Positions 24,943 to 45,416 of a stretch of DNA of 64,000 nt are shown here, one piece after another. The number at the start of each line of letters is the position of its first letter. Within the stretch, counting starts at the first letter, position 1. Source of the DNA: Sideroxydans sp. (GTDB lineage: Bacteria; Pseudomonadota; Gammaproteobacteria; Burkholderiales; Gallionellaceae); contig WGNQ01000012.1 in the NCBI GenBank assembly GCA_016124455.1, positions 1 to 64,000 on the forward strand. The letters are read 5' to 3'. The notes beneath the pieces were generated by a model. That model searched no databases. It saw nothing but the letters and a program-made list of their open reading frames with translations, and was not told the origin of the DNA. Position numbers and translations under genes: made by a program.

Positions 24943-25575
24943 CTAGTCTATCAGGTGGTTGCTGATGGCGTAGTGGATGGCTTCGGCATTGGTCTTCAGC
25001 TTCATCTTTTCCATCAGCCGGCTGCGGTAGACGCTGACGGTCTTCGGGCTGAGCGACATGATCTCGGCCATCTCGCTGAGCTTCTTGCCGGAAGCCATCA
25101 GGCACAGGGTCTGGTATTCGCGATTGGACAGGGTCTGATGCATTAACTCCTTGTAGCCTTCGGAAAGCCCTTCGGCGAGTTCTTCAGCGAGCTGGGTACT
25201 GATGTATTTCTTGCCGCGCGCAACCTGGCGTATGGCGATCACCAGTTGGGCCGGTGCGCTCTGCTTGTTCAGGTAACCGGATGCACCCGCTTTCAGGGCG
25301 CGCAGCGCGTATTGCTCTTCAGGGTGCATGCTCAGGATCAGCACGGGCTGTTTCGGGTTGTTCTTCTTGATCTGTTTTAATACGTCAATGCCATGCTTGT
25401 CCGGCAGCGTGATATCCAGCAGCACGAGATCGAAATCTCCCTCCCTGGCCATCTGGATGGCCTGCATTCCATTCTCTGCTTCGCCGGTTACACGCATGTC
25501 GTTCGTGTCGTCCAGAACCTGCTTGAGTCCTTTGCGGATGATCGAATGGTCGTCTGTAACGAGTACCTTGATCAT
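24943..25575 (-). CDS. NarL/FixJ-type response regulator
   Basis: This 210-residue protein has a receiver domain (VLVTDDHSIIRKG; phospho-acceptor Asp in LVLLDITLPD; Lys in YLNKQSAP) and a C-terminal LuxR-type helix-turn-helix (TLSNREYQTLCLMASGKKLSEMAEIMSLSPKTVSVYRSRLMEKM). It overlaps the upstream kinase gene by four bases, so the two form a pair. Its target is unknown. Its position between flagellin and flhDC suggests control of motility or attachment. Confidence 0.92.
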   Translation of the reverse strand: MIKVLVTDDHSIIRKGLKQVLDDTNDMRVTGEAENGMQAIQMAREGDFDLVLLDITLPDKHGIDVLKQIKKNNPKQPVLILSMHPEEQYALRALKAGASGYLNKQSAPAQLVIAIRQVARGKKYISTQLAEELAEGLSEGYKELMHQTLSNREYQTLCLMASGKKLSEMAEIMSLSPKTVSVYRSRLMEKMKLKTNAEAIHYAISNHLID

Positions 25576-27110
25576 TGTTGGGCGCTCCCGGCCGTGTCGC
25601 GTAAGGCTTGACGCTGTGGTGAGGCCTGTATGGTACCTGCATTGCGGGGGATGGTGATGGCTATGCTGGTGCCTTGGCCTGCCGCACTGCTGATCTTGAG
25701 TTTGCCGCCAAAATAGGTGATGCGCTCCTGGATGCCGCGCAGGCCGAAAGAGTGCGGCTTGTGCTTGTCGGTCTCAGCCAGGCCGCGGCCATTATCGCTG
25801 ACCATCAGTGCGACCTCGTGCTGCTGGTTGCGGATATCGATTTTGATACGGGTGGCCTGGGCATGTTTGATGATATTGGTCAGGGTTTCCTGGAAAATTC
25901 TGAACAGGGCGATATCCAGTTCGGGGTCGAGTTCTTCACGTTCATCTATATTGGTAAATTCACACTGTATGCCGGTGCGCTTGCGGAATTCCTCTATTTC
26001 CACCTCGATTGCCGCCACAATGCCGAAGCAGTCCAGCACGCCGGGGCGCAACATAAGCGAAATGTTGCGTGCCTCAATAATACATTTATCGACCAGTTCT
26101 TCGATACCTTTCGATATTTCCGTGACTTTCCTGTTTTCAGCTGTCAGATGATTGTTCATCCGTACAACTTCGAGCTTGATGGCGGTCAGGATGCCGCCGA
26201 GATTGTCATGTACCTCGCGGGATATGTTCAGGCGCTCCTGTTCGCGCACATCCTGCACGTGCTGGGAAAGTGCGCGCAACTCCTCCCTGGAGCGGTCGAG
26301 TTCGATGCGTGCGGCCTTGCTTTGCGTAATGTTGAACATTACGCCTTCCCATTGCGTGCTCCCGTTGTTCAGGCGGCGAGGGCTGCAACGCAGGTTGATC
26401 CATTTTATTTCGCCGGTTACCGGCATGCTGATGCGCCCCTCCCAGTTCCAGAAGCTGGACTGCTCGGCGGAGAGCCTGATGGCGAGGTCATAGGAAGGGC
26501 GGTCATCCTGGTGGATCATGTTCAGGAATAATGCGGCATCTTTCTCCAGTTCCTGGGGGCCGAGTCCGAGCAGCGCCCAGCTGCCTTCGCTGACGTAGGG
26601 AAAGCTTGTGCCGCCGTTTGCCGCAAGCAGCATCTGGTAAGCCATGCCGGGGAGATTGGAGATGAAGGCGCTCAGGCGGGCCTGGTTTTCCTGCAGGGTG
26701 GCCTGGCTTTCGTTGTGGGCACGCCGTATCTTTGCCTCACGCAGGTTGTGTTCTATGGCAAATGCGAGGCGGCTCAAGTCGCTTTTGCAGAGATAGTCGT
26801 CCGCGCCGGCCTGCATTGCCCGGTTTATATTTTTGTCCTGGGTGTCGTGGCAAAGAAACAGGAAGGGAATGTCCTGCCCCATTGTTTTTGTCAGCTTGAG
26901 AAGATGCAGTCCACCCAGTGCCGGCAAATCATAGCTGCAGAGAATGATGTCCGGGGCATAGCTGGCCAGGACAGTTTTCATGGCATCCGGGTCGCCGCCC
27001 GGCCAGTACCGGGTCTGGTAACCGCCGGCCTCCAGCTTATCCAGAACCTGTTGTGCATCGTGTTGAGACGAGTCAACTAGAAGTACGCGGGGGGGCGTGT
27101 TTATCTGCAT
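25572..27110 (-). CDS. Sensor histidine kinase with N-terminal receiver-like domain and PAS domain
   Basis: This protein has three parts: a receiver-like domain (residues 8-125), a PAS domain (about 150-265) and a NarX-type kinase core with REVHDNLGG (phospho-acceptor His) and the ATP-binding VSDNGRGLAE. No membrane helix is seen. The receiver has Ser59 (in DIILCSYDLP) where the phosphorylated Asp is expected, so it is probably a pseudo-receiver. I start at the ATG at 27110 (512 residues), because the 39 codons upstream (to 27227) do not resemble a domain and lack a ribosome site. It pairs with the response regulator at 24943-25575. Confidence 0.87.
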   Translation of the reverse strand: MQINTPPRVLLVDSSQHDAQQVLDKLEAGGYQTRYWPGGDPDAMKTVLASYAPDIILCSYDLPALGGLHLLKLTKTMGQDIPFLFLCHDTQDKNINRAMQAGADDYLCKSDLSRLAFAIEHNLREAKIRRAHNESQATLQENQARLSAFISNLPGMAYQMLLAANGGTSFPYVSEGSWALLGLGPQELEKDAALFLNMIHQDDRPSYDLAIRLSAEQSSFWNWEGRISMPVTGEIKWINLRCSPRRLNNGSTQWEGVMFNITQSKAARIELDRSREELRALSQHVQDVREQERLNISREVHDNLGGILTAIKLEVVRMNNHLTAENRKVTEISKGIEELVDKCIIEARNISLMLRPGVLDCFGIVAAIEVEIEEFRKRTGIQCEFTNIDEREELDPELDIALFRIFQETLTNIIKHAQATRIKIDIRNQQHEVALMVSDNGRGLAETDKHKPHSFGLRGIQERITYFGGKLKISSAAGQGTSIAITIPRNAGTIQASPQRQALRDTAGSAQQ

Positions 27111-27352
27111 GATCTTTATTAAATATGGTGCTTCAAAACTGTTACGGATCCGGGCGGCAATCGCCTTACTATAAGCAAGGGCGGTAGGAGCCGCAACCGC
27201 TTCGGTGGTCGCAGCCCCTGAAATCATGCCGCCCGGGCCGCAATAATCACGTTGTTCTTGAGCCGGGATCTGCTGGGAAAAAATTTATTGAAAATAATAT
27301 TTCAACATATCAATTGGTTAATAAAAATATGAAAAATATTTCAAAAAATCCC

Positions 27353-27379
27353 TAAAGTTTTTCCGGCGCTTGCCGATAG
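27353..27379 (+). promoter_or_regulatory. Sigma-28 promoter P1 (unit 1)
   Basis: TAAAGTTT, 11 bases, GCCGATAG: 15 of 16 consensus positions. Transcription should start near 27386, just before the hairpin at 27389-27423. Confidence 0.88.
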
Positions 27380-27385
27380 ATTCCT

Positions 27386-27430
27386 CGACAGTATGATTTT
27401 CTCCCCTTGCGAAATTGATACTGTTTTTTT
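27386..27430 (+). ncRNA. Putative sigma-28-dependent small RNA, copy 1
   Basis: A transcript from P1 would be about 45 bases long. CAGTATGATTTT (27389-27400) pairs with GAAATT-g-ATACTG (27411-27423; one bulged G), a 12-base-pair stem with some G-U pairs, followed by seven T. This is a good intrinsic terminator. The 10-base loop CUCCCCUUGC contains a strong anti-Shine-Dalgarno sequence. The reverse complement of the loop and 3' arm resembles the flhD ribosome-binding site at 27656-27678. No expression data are available; it could also be a leader element of flhDC. Confidence 0.55.
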
Positions 27431-27440
27431 AAAACAGCCC

Positions 27441-27467
27441 TAAAGTTTTTTTCGGGCTGGCCGATAT
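27441..27467 (+). promoter_or_regulatory. Sigma-28 promoter P2 (unit 2)
   Basis: TAAAGTTT, 11 bases, GCCGATAT: 15 of 16 consensus positions. The predicted start is near 27474, just before the second hairpin. Distance to the flhD ATG is about 210 bases. Confidence 0.88.
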
Positions 27468-27473
27468 ACAGAT

Positions 27474-27514
27474 TGTCAGTGCGGATTTGTCCCCTTGCAA
27501 ATTCGTGCCGTTTT
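27474..27514 (+). ncRNA. Putative sigma-28-dependent small RNA, copy 2
   Basis: CAGTGCGGATTTG (27477-27489) pairs with CAAATTCGTGCCG (27498-27510), with one A-C mismatch and three G-U pairs, around the loop UCCCCUUG. A shorter T-run, TTTT, follows. Compared with copy 1 the stem has changed on both sides and still pairs, which supports a selected RNA structure. Bases 27489-27503 are perfectly complementary over 15 bases to the flhD ribosome-binding site. Confidence 0.55.
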
Positions 27515-27595
27515 GCCTGATTCCCGTGTTCTAGCGCCTTGGCGACCGGAGCGTGGGGGTTCGGCTATTCAATTGTAGGAATTTTGCTTACAAAG

Positions 27596-27619
27596 AAATC
27601 AGAAAATTTCTGATTTTTT
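27596..27619 (+). terminator. AT-rich inverted repeat with T-run in the flhD leader
   Basis: AAATCAGAAA and TTTCTGATTT flank a single A and are followed by TTT. This is a perfect 10-base inverted repeat about 65 bases before flhD. It could act as a weak terminator/attenuator for read-through from P1 and P2, or as a protein-binding palindrome. The low GC makes strong termination doubtful. Confidence 0.4.
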
Positions 27620-27663
27620 CCTACCTGCTCGCCCCGCAGAATGCAATCGTCTGCACAGACATC

Positions 27664-27678
27664 AATTTGCAAGGGGAC
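27664..27678 (+). promoter_or_regulatory. flhD ribosome-binding site, complementary to the upstream hairpin loops
   Basis: AATTTGCAAGGGGAC includes the Shine-Dalgarno AAGGGGA five bases before the flhD ATG. It is the exact reverse complement of 27489-27503 and, apart from one inserted base, of the loop and 3' arm of copy 1. The complementarity extends past the Shine-Dalgarno into AATTTGC, so it is more than an ordinary purine/pyrimidine match. Confidence 0.7.
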
Positions 27679-27682
27679 CAAC

Positions 27683-28003
27683 ATGAACGCGAATCAACTG
27701 CATGAAGAAATCAAGGAAGCCAATCTTTCCTATCTGCTGCTTGCCCAGCAGATGATCAATGACGATCAGGCGGCGGCCGTATTTCGACTGGGTATTAGCC
27801 AGGAAATGGCGGATTTGATTGCTCGCCTGACTCCCGCGCAGCTGCTGAAAATGGCGGCGTCCAATATGCTGCTCTGTCGTTTCCGCTTCGACGAGCGCCT
27901 GTTGCTGAATATGGTTACCGATTACAACAAGGATCGCCTGATGTCCCAGCCGCATGCGGCCATCATGATGGCCGGCCAGCCGGTAGAAGCCCTGGCGGCT
28001 TGA
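27683..28003 (+). CDS. flhD: Flagellar master regulator subunit FlhD
   Basis: This 106-residue helical protein forms the FlhD4C2 activator of the class II flagellar operons. ANLSYLLLAQQMINDDQAAAVFRLGIS and DLIARLTPAQLLKMAASNMLLCRFRFDE are typical. I start at the ATG at 27683 (MNANQLHEEI) because AAGGGGA lies five bases before it; a frame from 27641 would run through the ribosome site. flhC follows after 31 bases. Two sigma-28 promoters and anti-ribosome-site hairpins upstream suggest feedback from FliA. Confidence 0.95.
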   Translation: MNANQLHEEIKEANLSYLLLAQQMINDDQAAAVFRLGISQEMADLIARLTPAQLLKMAASNMLLCRFRFDERLLLNMVTDYNKDRLMSQPHAAIMMAGQPVEALAA

Positions 28004-28034
28004 CTCACAGTGGTAGTGGATGACAGGGGGACTT

Positions 28035-28592
28035 ATGCGCAATAAAAGTGTACTCACCGAGGCAAAGCAAATTCAACTGGCTGTGGAACTGATCGAGTTT
28101 GGCGCACGCCTGCAACTGCTGCAGGAGGAAATATCGATCAGCCGCGAGCGCTTGCTGAAGCTGTATAAGGAAGTGAAAGGTGAATCCCCGTCAAAAGGAA
28201 TGCTGCCTTATTCAACCGACTGGTTCATGAGCTGGCTGCCCAATATCCACTCGTCACTGTTCATCAACATTTATCAGTTCCTGATCCAGAATGCCGGCGT
28301 GTCCGGGGTGGAGGCGCTGATCAAGAGTTACCGGCTTTATCTGGAGCAGGTTCAACTCGGGGGCGATGCCGAGCCGGCGCTAAGCATTACCCGGGCCTGG
28401 TTTCTGATCCGCTTTTTTGATGCGGACATGTTGAAGCTGGCGGCGTGCAAAGAGTGTGCCGGCCAGTATGTGGTGCATAGCAACGAATTGTATGGTGACT
28501 ATGTGTGCGGTATTTGCCGGCCACCATCGCGTGCCGGAAAAACCAAGAAACAGGCGGCATCGCTGGACAAAGAAGTTTGCACTTCCATTTAA
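28035..28592 (+). CDS. flhC: Flagellar master regulator subunit FlhC
   Basis: This 185-residue DNA-binding partner of FlhD carries the zinc-binding cysteines C-x2-C and C-x2-C in ACKECAGQYVVHS and DYVCGICRPP near the C-terminus. The ATG at 28035 follows AGGGGGAC by two bases. That ribosome site also shares GGGGAC with the flhD site, so the upstream hairpin RNAs could bind it as well, though more weakly. The last codons overlap the motA promoter. Confidence 0.95.
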   Translation: MRNKSVLTEAKQIQLAVELIEFGARLQLLQEEISISRERLLKLYKEVKGESPSKGMLPYSTDWFMSWLPNIHSSLFINIYQFLIQNAGVSGVEALIKSYRLYLEQVQLGGDAEPALSITRAWFLIRFFDADMLKLAACKECAGQYVVHSNELYGDYVCGICRPPSRAGKTKKQAASLDKEVCTSI

Positions 28593-28615
28593 ATTTCCCT
28601 TAAAAGCGCCGATAC
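28589..28615 (+). promoter_or_regulatory. Candidate sigma-28 promoter of motAB
   Basis: TTAAATTT, 11 bases, GCCGATAC, overlapping the flhC stop. Thirteen of 16 positions match the consensus. It lies 166 bases before the motA ATG, leaving a long leader with short hairpins (for example AGAGC/GCTCT). Confidence 0.7.
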
Positions 28616-28780
28616 CACTAGAATGCGAAAGTTGTAGAGACGGCCGCATTCCTTCCGTTTGTTTGCGAACTGACGAAAGAGAGCTGCCTGGCTCTATAAA
28701 TTTTTCGCTGGAGGCCGAGGCTCTCATGTTATTTAGCCTCTGGATTCTTGCAGTTTTCACACCCTCATGGAGCGCAGGTT

Positions 28781-29635
28781 ATGTTGGTGATTATCGGGTA
28801 CATTGTGGTGGTGGGGGCGGTATTCGGCGGTTTTGCCCTGGCTGGCGGTCATCTGGGGGCATTGTTCCAGCCGCTTGAGTTGCTGATGATCGGCGGTGGC
28901 GCGTTAGGCGCTTTTTTTGTGGGGAACTCAGGCAAGGCACTCAAGGCCACATTGAAGGCTCTCCCCAGCGTATTTAAAGGCTCAAAATACAGCAAGGACA
29001 TGTATATGGAACTCATGGCGCTGCTGTATGAGTTATTGAGCAAGGTGCGCAAGGAGGGGCTGATGTCGATCGAAGGCGATATCGAAAAGCCTGAAGAAAG
29101 CCCGGTTTTCTCCAAGTATCCCAAGATCATGTCCGATCACCATATCATCGAATTCCTGGCGGATTATTTGCGCATCATGGTCAGCGGCAATCTCAATTCC
29201 ATGGAAATCGAAAACCTGATGGAAGTCGAGATCGAGACGCATCACCATGAGGCGCTGGTTCCGGCGCATGTGATCGCCAAAGTGGGCGACGGCCTGCCGG
29301 CGTTCGGTATCGTGGCTGCGGTGATGGGAGTGGTGCACACCATGGAGTCGGTGGGCGTGCCGCCCTCCGAGCTGGGTATGCTGATTGCCCATGCGCTGGT
29401 GGGAACCTTCCTCGGCATCCTGCTGGCCTATGGATTTGTCGGTCCGCTCGGCGGTCTGCTGGAGCAGAAGGTGGAAGAGTCATCCAAAATGTTCCAGACC
29501 ATAAAGGTCACCCTGCTGGCCAGCCTCAACGGCTATGCGCCGGCAATGGCCGTGGAGTTTGGGCGCAAAGTCCTGTACTCAACTGAACGTCCCGGGTTCG
29601 CCGAGCTTGAAGAACATGTCAAGCAGAAGCGTTAG
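28781..29635 (+). CDS. motA: Flagellar stator protein MotA
   Basis: This 284-residue protein has four membrane helices and forms the proton channel with MotB. Helix 1 is VIIGYIVVVGAVFGGFALAGG; the torque loop and helices 3-4 (GDGLPAFGIVAAVMGVVHTME, LVGTFLGILLAYGFVGPL) include the conserved prolines. I use the ATG at 28781 (MLVIIGY), preceded by GGAG, since MotA proteins start here. A frame opening at 28748 adds 11 residues unlike MotA. A second stator pair is at 45416-46937. Confidence 0.96.
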   Translation: MLVIIGYIVVVGAVFGGFALAGGHLGALFQPLELLMIGGGALGAFFVGNSGKALKATLKALPSVFKGSKYSKDMYMELMALLYELLSKVRKEGLMSIEGDIEKPEESPVFSKYPKIMSDHHIIEFLADYLRIMVSGNLNSMEIENLMEVEIETHHHEALVPAHVIAKVGDGLPAFGIVAAVMGVVHTMESVGVPPSELGMLIAHALVGTFLGILLAYGFVGPLGGLLEQKVEESSKMFQTIKVTLLASLNGYAPAMAVEFGRKVLYSTERPGFAELEEHVKQKR

Positions 29636-44705: not shown

Positions 44706-45416
44706 ATGTACACTGCAACGGGATTAACCGACAAGGATCAATGCATCCGGGAGTATGCGCCGCTGGTAAAGCGCATCGCCTTCCACATGAAGGCGAAACT
44801 GCCGAGCAGCGTGGAAGTGGACGACATCATCCAGGCCGGCATGATGGGGCTGCTGGATGCATCCAACCGTTATGACGAATTGCGCGGCGCGCAATTCGAG
44901 ACTTATGCTGCGCAGCGCATACGCGGTGCCATGCTGGATGAATTGCGCCAGGCCGACTGGATGCCGCGCAACCTGCGCCGTGATATGCGTCGTATCGAGT
45001 CGGCGATCAATAAATTGCAGCAACGCATGGGTAAACCGCCGAGCGAAGCGGATATTGCAAGGGATCTCGGCATGTCGCTGGACGAATACCAGCAGATGCT
45101 GTTCGAGGCGCGTGGTGCCCAGTTGCTGTATTACGAGGATTTCCACCAGGAGGAGGGCGAGGATTTCCTCGATCGCTATGATCTGGACAGCGACATGGAT
45201 CCGGTGGACCTGTTGCGCGATGAGCGTTTCCGCGGTGCCTTGATCAAGGCGATCGAGGATCTGCCGGAACGCGAACGCATGCTGATGGGCATGCACTACG
45301 AACAGGACATGAACCTGCGGGAGATCGGCGAAGTGATGGGCGTCAGCGAATCGCGCGTATGCCAGTTGCATAGCCAGGCGGTGGCCCGGTTGCGTGGCTG
45401 GCTGAAGGGCCATTGA
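44706..45416 (+). CDS. fliA: Flagellar sigma factor FliA (sigma-28)
   Basis: This 236-residue sigma factor directs late flagellar genes. Region 2 is PLVKRIAFHMKAKLPSSVEVDDIIQAGMMGLLDA with QFETYAAQRIRGAMLDELR; region 4 is LPERERMLMGMHYEQDMNLREIGEVMGVSESRVCQLHSQA. It reads promoters of the type at 23085, 27353, 27441, 28589 and 47800 and is inhibited by FlgM (47451-47765). Its stop overlaps the motC start. Confidence 0.97.
   Translation: MYTATGLTDKDQCIREYAPLVKRIAFHMKAKLPSSVEVDDIIQAGMMGLLDASNRYDELRGAQFETYAAQRIRGAMLDELRQADWMPRNLRRDMRRIESAINKLQQRMGKPPSEADIARDLGMSLDEYQQMLFEARGAQLLYYEDFHQEEGEDFLDRYDLDSDMDPVDLLRDERFRGALIKAIEDLPERERMLMGMHYEQDMNLREIGEVMGVSESRVCQLHSQAVARLRGWLKGH

Follow-up and report, generated by a model that had tools for sequence, protein, structure and literature searches.

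A candidate FliA-dependent RNA gene upstream of flhD with a hairpin loop complementary to the flhD ribosome-binding site in Gallionellaceae

Small RNAs whose C-rich loops cover Shine-Dalgarno (SD) sequences include RepG of Helicobacter and the UCCC-motif RNAs of Staphylococcus. The RNA unit described here likewise has a C-rich loop facing a translation site rich in G, in other bacteria and with another promoter and target. It also resembles the sigma-28-dependent, UTR-derived small RNAs UhpU, MotR, FliX and FlgO of E. coli, which tune flagellar genes by base pairing (eLife 2023, PMC10578931). The part of that paper drawn on here describes no pairing of these four RNAs with the flhD mRNA, UhpU acting on lrhA. 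The present unit differs from them in being served by a promoter of its own next to flhD and in having a loop that matches the SD of this gene. A further likeness, control of flhD after transcription, is to the E. coli small RNAs acting on the flhDC mRNA, namely ArcZ, OmrA, OmrB, OxyS, McaS and AsflhD (PMC10578931); the same part of the paper does not describe these as sigma-28-dependent, so that they would bring in outside signals rather than close a flagellar loop. In Campylobacter, FlmR (CJnc170) is a FliA-dependent RNA of 47 nt whose overexpression lowers motility and for which feedback has been suggested; its proposed targets belong to class II, flgE among them, and flhD is not named as a target in the portion of the source used (PMC11187230). 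The E. coli sigma-28 and flhDC small RNAs and FlmR are listed together in a 2026 review, to judge from the section at hand (PMC13432727). Among the matches listed in a search of open-access full-text literature, with subscription papers outside its scope, no description of the present unit was found.

The flhD locus of Sideroxydans sp.

The window, the whole 64,000-nt stretch of Sideroxydans sp. DNA that was analyzed (contig WGNQ01000012.1), carries two tandem units upstream of flhD with a spacing of 88 bp. The elements and genes concerned are as follows.

27353..27378, + strand: FliA (sigma-28) type promoter, copy 1, exact match to TAAAGTTT-N{9,13}-GCCGATA
27387..27425, + strand: hairpin H1 of copy 1 with C-rich loop, predicted fold
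27402..27419, + strand: copy 1 seed, 17 bp with 27661-27677, bulged G27411
27441..27466, + strand: FliA type promoter, copy 2, exact motif match
27479..27508, + strand: hairpin H1 of copy 2, 12 bp, loop UCCCCU, predicted fold, unpaired probability 1.0
27489..27503, + strand: copy 2 seed, GTCCCCTTGCAAATT, reverse complement of the flhD ribosome-binding site
27515..27565, + strand: second hairpin, terminator-like, predicted fold, with a U-poor tail in the window genome
27661..27678, + strand: target, flhD leader and SD AAGGGGA (27671-27677)
27683..28003, + strand: flhD (Pfam PF05247 FlhD, E 1.1e-43)
28035..28592, + strand: flhC, the next gene after flhD (Pfam PF05280 FlhC, E 7.2e-85)
44745..45404, + strand: fliA, the sigma-28 gene and candidate driver of the unit (NCBIfam TIGR02479, 273.7 bits, over the cut-off)

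Both promoters are exact matches to TAAAGTTT-N11-GCCGATA, at 27353 and 27441, and 100 shuffles of the window contained none. The motif TAAAGTTT...GCCGATA is what we take to be the FliA consensus, and in the window such a promoter stands directly before the RNA, as it would for a sigma-28-dependent small RNA. The first hairpin of copy 1 folds with -11.2 kcal/mol and a z score of -4.1 (27383-27434 folded) and is followed by a run of T at 27424-27430; hairpin and T run may possibly form the terminator itself. A scan of 26400-29000 against Rfam 15 returned no family at gathering score and three matches at E 0.7 with scores well under that threshold, none of them in the unit.

The earlier note had reported a perfect 15-base complementarity between the hairpin and the flhD ribosome-binding site, and this was confirmed: read in reverse complement, 27489-27503 is identical to 27664-27678, which covers the SD. 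With a repeat finder the copy 2 match reaches 18 nt at 94% identity (27486-27503 with 27664-27681). The same complementarity with one extra base, claimed for copy 1, was likewise found, TCCCCTTGC-[G]-AAATTGAT forming 17 bp with 27661-27677 around a bulged G. When the 300 nt upstream of flhD were dinucleotide-shuffled 5,000 times, 252 of the shuffles reached 9 nt and none reached 15 nt, the maximum being 12. The second hairpin behind copy 2 and the conservation of the unit in relatives add to what that note had described.

Other elements of the locus were recorded beside the unit. Two palindromes lie between it and flhD at 27573-27619 (TTGTAGGAA...TTACAA and AATCAGAAA...TTTCTGATT), and the forms GTAGGAA...TTCCTAC and CGGAA...TTCCG occupy the same place in many relatives; they are perhaps an operator or promoter region of flhD. 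A divergent two-component pair on the - strand at 24943-27227, consisting of a kinase with receiver, PAS and HisKA_3 domains and a LuxR-type response regulator, is a candidate for the regulator acting there. The flhD leader also has a CCCC stretch of its own (27632-27638), about 40 nt before the SD and able to fold locally onto it. The leaders of L100 and L099 have such a stretch too, GTCCCCGCAAAA in L100 being a match to the SD region that is interrupted by a small bulge.

Hairpin architecture and distribution in the family

The nearest named relatives of the window FlhD belong to the Gallionellaceae (Sideroxydans, Nitrotoga, Ferriphaselus and Gallionella, plus genome bins), and the unit appears to be carried by many iron- and nitrite-oxidising bacteria of this one family. 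Genera are given here by codes, g12 corresponding to Nitrotoga and g14 being Sideroxydans-like, since named and coded loci share upstream DNA. We found flhD in 111 of 158 family genomes and took the upstream DNA of 110 flhD loci from 106 of the 111 genomes, 104 loci having at least 330 nt; G048, G062, G083, G115, G117 and several second flhD copies fall outside this set. Of the 110 loci, 55 have a strict FliA-type promoter in the 420 nt before flhD (19 in g6, 17 in g14, 13 in g12, 3 in g5 and one each in g1, g11 and g15), the nearest promoter lying at -314 to -235. At 49 of these 55 loci the loop region contains CCCC or CCCT, and five loci, the window and four of g12, carry a double promoter. 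In the g14 genomes G129, G131, G137 and G144, a promoter that we judged by eye to be sigma-70-like has taken the place of the FliA promoter, while the loop TCCCCTCGC and the SD GCGAGGGGAC are kept. A g14 subclade comprising the loci L100, L101, L102, L105 and L094 has a sigma-70-like promoter (by eye) instead of the FliA promoter, the anti-SD hairpin and the SD staying in place.

A common layout is seen at the flhD of many relatives: a FliA promoter, H1 with an unpaired C-rich loop, and a terminator-like hairpin. We folded 56 units, one per locus and picked for having the unit, as transcripts that begin immediately downstream of the promoter and end near the conserved GTAGG box, and all 56 gave a fold of two hairpins. 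The CCC core of H1 was mostly predicted to be unpaired with a probability of 0.9-1, the values being lower in L020, L090, L082 and L026. The second hairpin is often GC-rich and followed by U, with U tracts that are fuller in g5, g6 and g14 and poorer in the window and in g12.

RNAalifold detected no common structure when all 51 promoter-plus-H1 units were aligned together, which we think reflects loop sizes of either 6 or 8 nt depending on the genus, and the search model was for this reason built on sequence only. That first alignment was made without nine loci that had a promoter but no C-loop, a diverged C-loop or a near-duplicate sequence. Splitting the alignments by group recovered the H1 structure. 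In an alignment of 28 distinct rows (29 of 37 non-g14 rows used), both partners had changed in 8 of 11 pairs (46 cells), a level that none of 500 shuffles reached, kinship being ignored, and slid controls in the same alignment stayed far below H1. The covariation was weaker in the 16 rows of g14, where 5 of 12 pairs changed and 66 of 500 shuffles were as high, or 2 of 500 by the covariation score, again ignoring kinship.

At E <= 1e-6 the promoter-plus-H1 sequence model matched 61 times, in 56 of the 158 family genomes, and comparison of coordinates placed all 61 just upstream of flhD; weaker matches concern mainly the promoter part. Searched against 399 genomes of the order, the model matched 10 genomes outside the family at E <= 1e-4, partially and on the promoter side only, and the C-loop was not seen in 8 of these 10 outside-family matches, those near an flhD. 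In the family coded f42, FliA promoters stand upstream of flhD at six loci (L430, L431, L433, L435, L437 and L438; -247 to -256) and are followed by a terminator-like hairpin after a different first hairpin, the SD being AAGGAG in five of the six; the family coded f34 has FliA promoters at two loci, at -345 and -366. Together these eight loci lack the C-loop, and seven of them have the SD AAGGAG or GAGGAG. The presence of FliA promoters at flhD in the absence of the C-loop suggests that a FliA-driven RNA at this place may be older than the anti-SD loop.

Pairing of loop and ribosome-binding site across genera

For the window genome the comparison covered 1.64 of 2.23 Mb, in which an automatic selection yielded 1,515 ORF starts besides flhD; flhD itself, which the selection had missed because of a longer overlapping frame, was entered by hand. 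With the loop plus the 3' arm of H1, copy 1 (-26.3 kcal/mol) and copy 2 (-29.2 kcal/mol) both formed their strongest duplex with flhD, which none of the 1,515 other starts equaled, although for copy 2 the runner-up came close (-29.2 vs -27.8 kcal/mol). With the short loop alone, flhD ranked first for copy 2 and third for copy 1. The flhC SD CAGGGGGACTT reached -18.4 kcal/mol with the copy 2 loop and is possibly a weaker second target. No Hfq gene was found in the window genome, an assembly that is 89% complete; one was present in 27 of 30 other genomes searched.

The perfect complements of the loops were also counted before start codons elsewhere. The g14 sequence GCGAGGGGAC stands before ATG 31 times in 34 genomes, 18 of them at flhD, against 4 times for the reversed control; in 12 of the 13 non-flhD sites, which were read, the frames are at most 62 aa except for one gene of G150 with 501 aa or more, met twice and once cut short, so that, of the places read, no real gene other than flhD recurs. 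The g12 sequence TGCAAGGGG precedes ATG 49 times in 19 genomes (12 at flhD, 14 in G106; reversed control 6). GCRAGGGGTC, for g6, was found before ATG 51 times in 76 genomes vs 38 for the reversed control, and no recurrent gene start was recognized in the 30 of 51 loci read; eight of these 30 open a frame of at least 100 aa, and the one frame that recurs, in G022 and G053, looks like an internal codon. In the window genome, the shorter CAAGGGG before RTG is common (70 vs 29 for the reversed control).

A loop-SD match of at least 9 nt was found at 29 of the 55 promoter loci. Among the 19 g6 promoter loci, eight reach 7 contiguous pairs and none reaches 9, L114 and L119 having long interrupted matches with good energies. 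In G090 (g7), which had been left out when the promoter-plus-H1 model was built, GATTTCGTCCCC pairs with GGGGACGAAATC over 12 nt, with the register moved in the direction of the start codon; 1 of 5,000 shuffles reaches 12 nt.

At the variable place of the loop, 59 loci scored by eye against the SD gave 26 T-A pairs, 27 C-G pairs, six C-A mismatches and no T-G. On a tree holding 58 of these loci, two loop changes and three SD changes are needed; over random pairings, 1.4 of the 2 had an SD that differed in the direction of the loop change, 0.6 had no SD difference, and none went the opposite way. These independent changes are too few for significance. Independent change of loop and ribosome-binding site at orthologous loci, which the earlier note had named as speaking against the pairing, appears in 6 of the 58 tree rows, all of g6, where a loop C faces an SD A. 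Duplex energies within the own genus were better than with permuted genera, 67 of 5,040 permutations being as good, and the effect was weaker with block means (132 of 5,040). Against ribosome-binding sites of other genera, g14 comes out strongest, 13 of its 18 rows ranking their own first, and 11 of 18 g6 rows rank theirs in the worse half. Copy 2 of the window ranks 10 of 51 and the two g5 rows rank 34 and 25 of 50, places explained by the SD motif being shared by other genera.

Outside g6, the SD contains GGGG at 41 of 42 loci with a C-loop vs 8 of 19 without one, a count that ignores relatedness and omits L093 and six loci with less than 330 nt upstream and no loop; within g6, GGGG is not tied to the loop (17 of 21 vs 18 of 21). 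Where the loop has been lost, the SD is GAGGAG in G013 and still GCGAGGGGAC in G157 and G124. Across the set, except in part of g6, the seed is thus predicted to be exposed and complementary to the ribosome-binding site of the target, and changes together with it in the few independent cases.

Action of the unit and alternative readings

The promoter match, the covarying H1, the predicted open loop, the complementarity, the partial co-change with the SD and the constant position at flhD are read directly from the sequence. The reading that we favor, and consider probable, is that a small RNA made under FliA control keeps flhD from being translated, acting in trans as a negative feedback. A small RNA gene upstream of flhD, doubled in the window genome, would be transcribed by RNA polymerase with FliA into an RNA of about 45-105 nt, consisting of H1 with its C-rich loop and then the terminator-like hairpin, or for copy 1 of H1 itself with the T run. 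The loop would pair with the SD of the flhD mRNA, the pairing spreading into the 3' arm of H1, and the duplex would keep ribosomes off flhD. FlhDC activates fliA in E. coli, and we assume the same for the window organism; FlhDC would then switch on fliA, FliA would make the RNA and the RNA would bring FlhD down, so that the late flagellar stage would feed back on the master regulator. Transcription, termination, action in trans and the direction of the effect we infer, repression being expected as the SD itself would be covered. The earlier note's proposal of a FliA-made RNA covering the flhD SD gains from the conserved promoter, the covarying hairpin, the loop predicted to be open, the terminator-like hairpin, the best duplex within the 1.64 Mb covered and the co-change between genera, and fits less well in part of g6. 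The loop and SD retained in the four g14 genomes that lost the FliA promoter also count for the favored reading. Counting against it are the weak g6 matches, the small number of loop changes on the tree, the narrow lead of copy 2, the third place of copy 1 with the short loop, the many g12 and CAAGGGG occurrences away from flhD, the SD kept in G157 and G124 after loss of the loop, the Hfq gene not found in the window genome and the U-poor tail of the second hairpin there.

The earlier note had offered, beside action in trans, a long leader folding back in cis, and both fit the data in hand, which as sequence do not separate them. In the cis form, the FliA-driven transcript would read through into flhD and the loop would fold onto the SD as a leader rather than a free RNA, its sense being that late-class transcription could not make FlhD; we consider this reading unlikely. 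Such a fold is predicted in the window, where the SD of a hypothetical read-through RNA pairs with copy 1 (mean probability 0.87) and that of an RNA from the second promoter with copy 2 (0.97), and the loop pairs with the SD above 0.7 in 10 of 15 orthologues folded after a check of the loop position. All strong model matches moreover lie at flhD, the nearest promoter at -314 to -235, as action in cis needs. Against it, the other five of the 15 orthologues do not favor cis pairing, a hairpin of terminator character lies between H1 and flhD in 56 of 56 folded units, and an untranslatable mRNA of a master regulator seems wasteful. The second hairpin and the separate promoter favor a free RNA over a cis leader, and either action would lower FlhD. 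It is conceivable, at a tentative grade, that one element works in two modes, the free small RNA shutting flhD in trans and the read-through RNA locking the SD in cis.

Two readings give the flhD match a smaller role. The unit could be a FliA-dependent small RNA that acts on different mRNAs or on further ones as well, flhD being a minor target or a target in some genera only, and the loop GACCCCTYGC retained in g6 even at non-matching flhD, together with the f42 loci where promoter and terminator-like hairpin persist ahead of flhD with no C-loop, points that way; we hold it improbable, no second recurrent target having appeared in g6 (51 vs 38 in the control; 30 of 51 read) or in the g14 places read. 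A chance resemblance, in which any C-rich loop looks like an anti-SD sequence and regulates nothing, would profit from the G-rich SDs that make matches of 6-7 nt cheap, from the 9 nt reached in 252 of 5,000 shuffles and from the 70 occurrences of CAAGGGG before RTG in the window genome. It has to account for 15 and 17 paired bases in the window, the best of 1,516 starts, for the 12 nt of G090 in a new register and for the matches of at least 9 nt at 29 of 55 promoter loci, and we give it very little credence. A CsrA decoy was set aside, the loop having no GGA, as were operator repeats at the DNA level, the stems varying while the pairing is kept.

The means by which the late stage of flagellar development dampens its master regulator are understood only in part. 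If the two-mode reading were true, FliA could only lower FlhD, and the GGGG SD of the master regulator would be maintained by its pairing with a neighboring RNA. In the family of Gallionella, Sideroxydans, Nitrotoga and Ferriphaselus, where little genetics exists, the sequence would reveal a direct connection by RNA between FliA and flhD, and the genus-specific pairs of loop and SD would serve as ready-made natural compensatory mutants.
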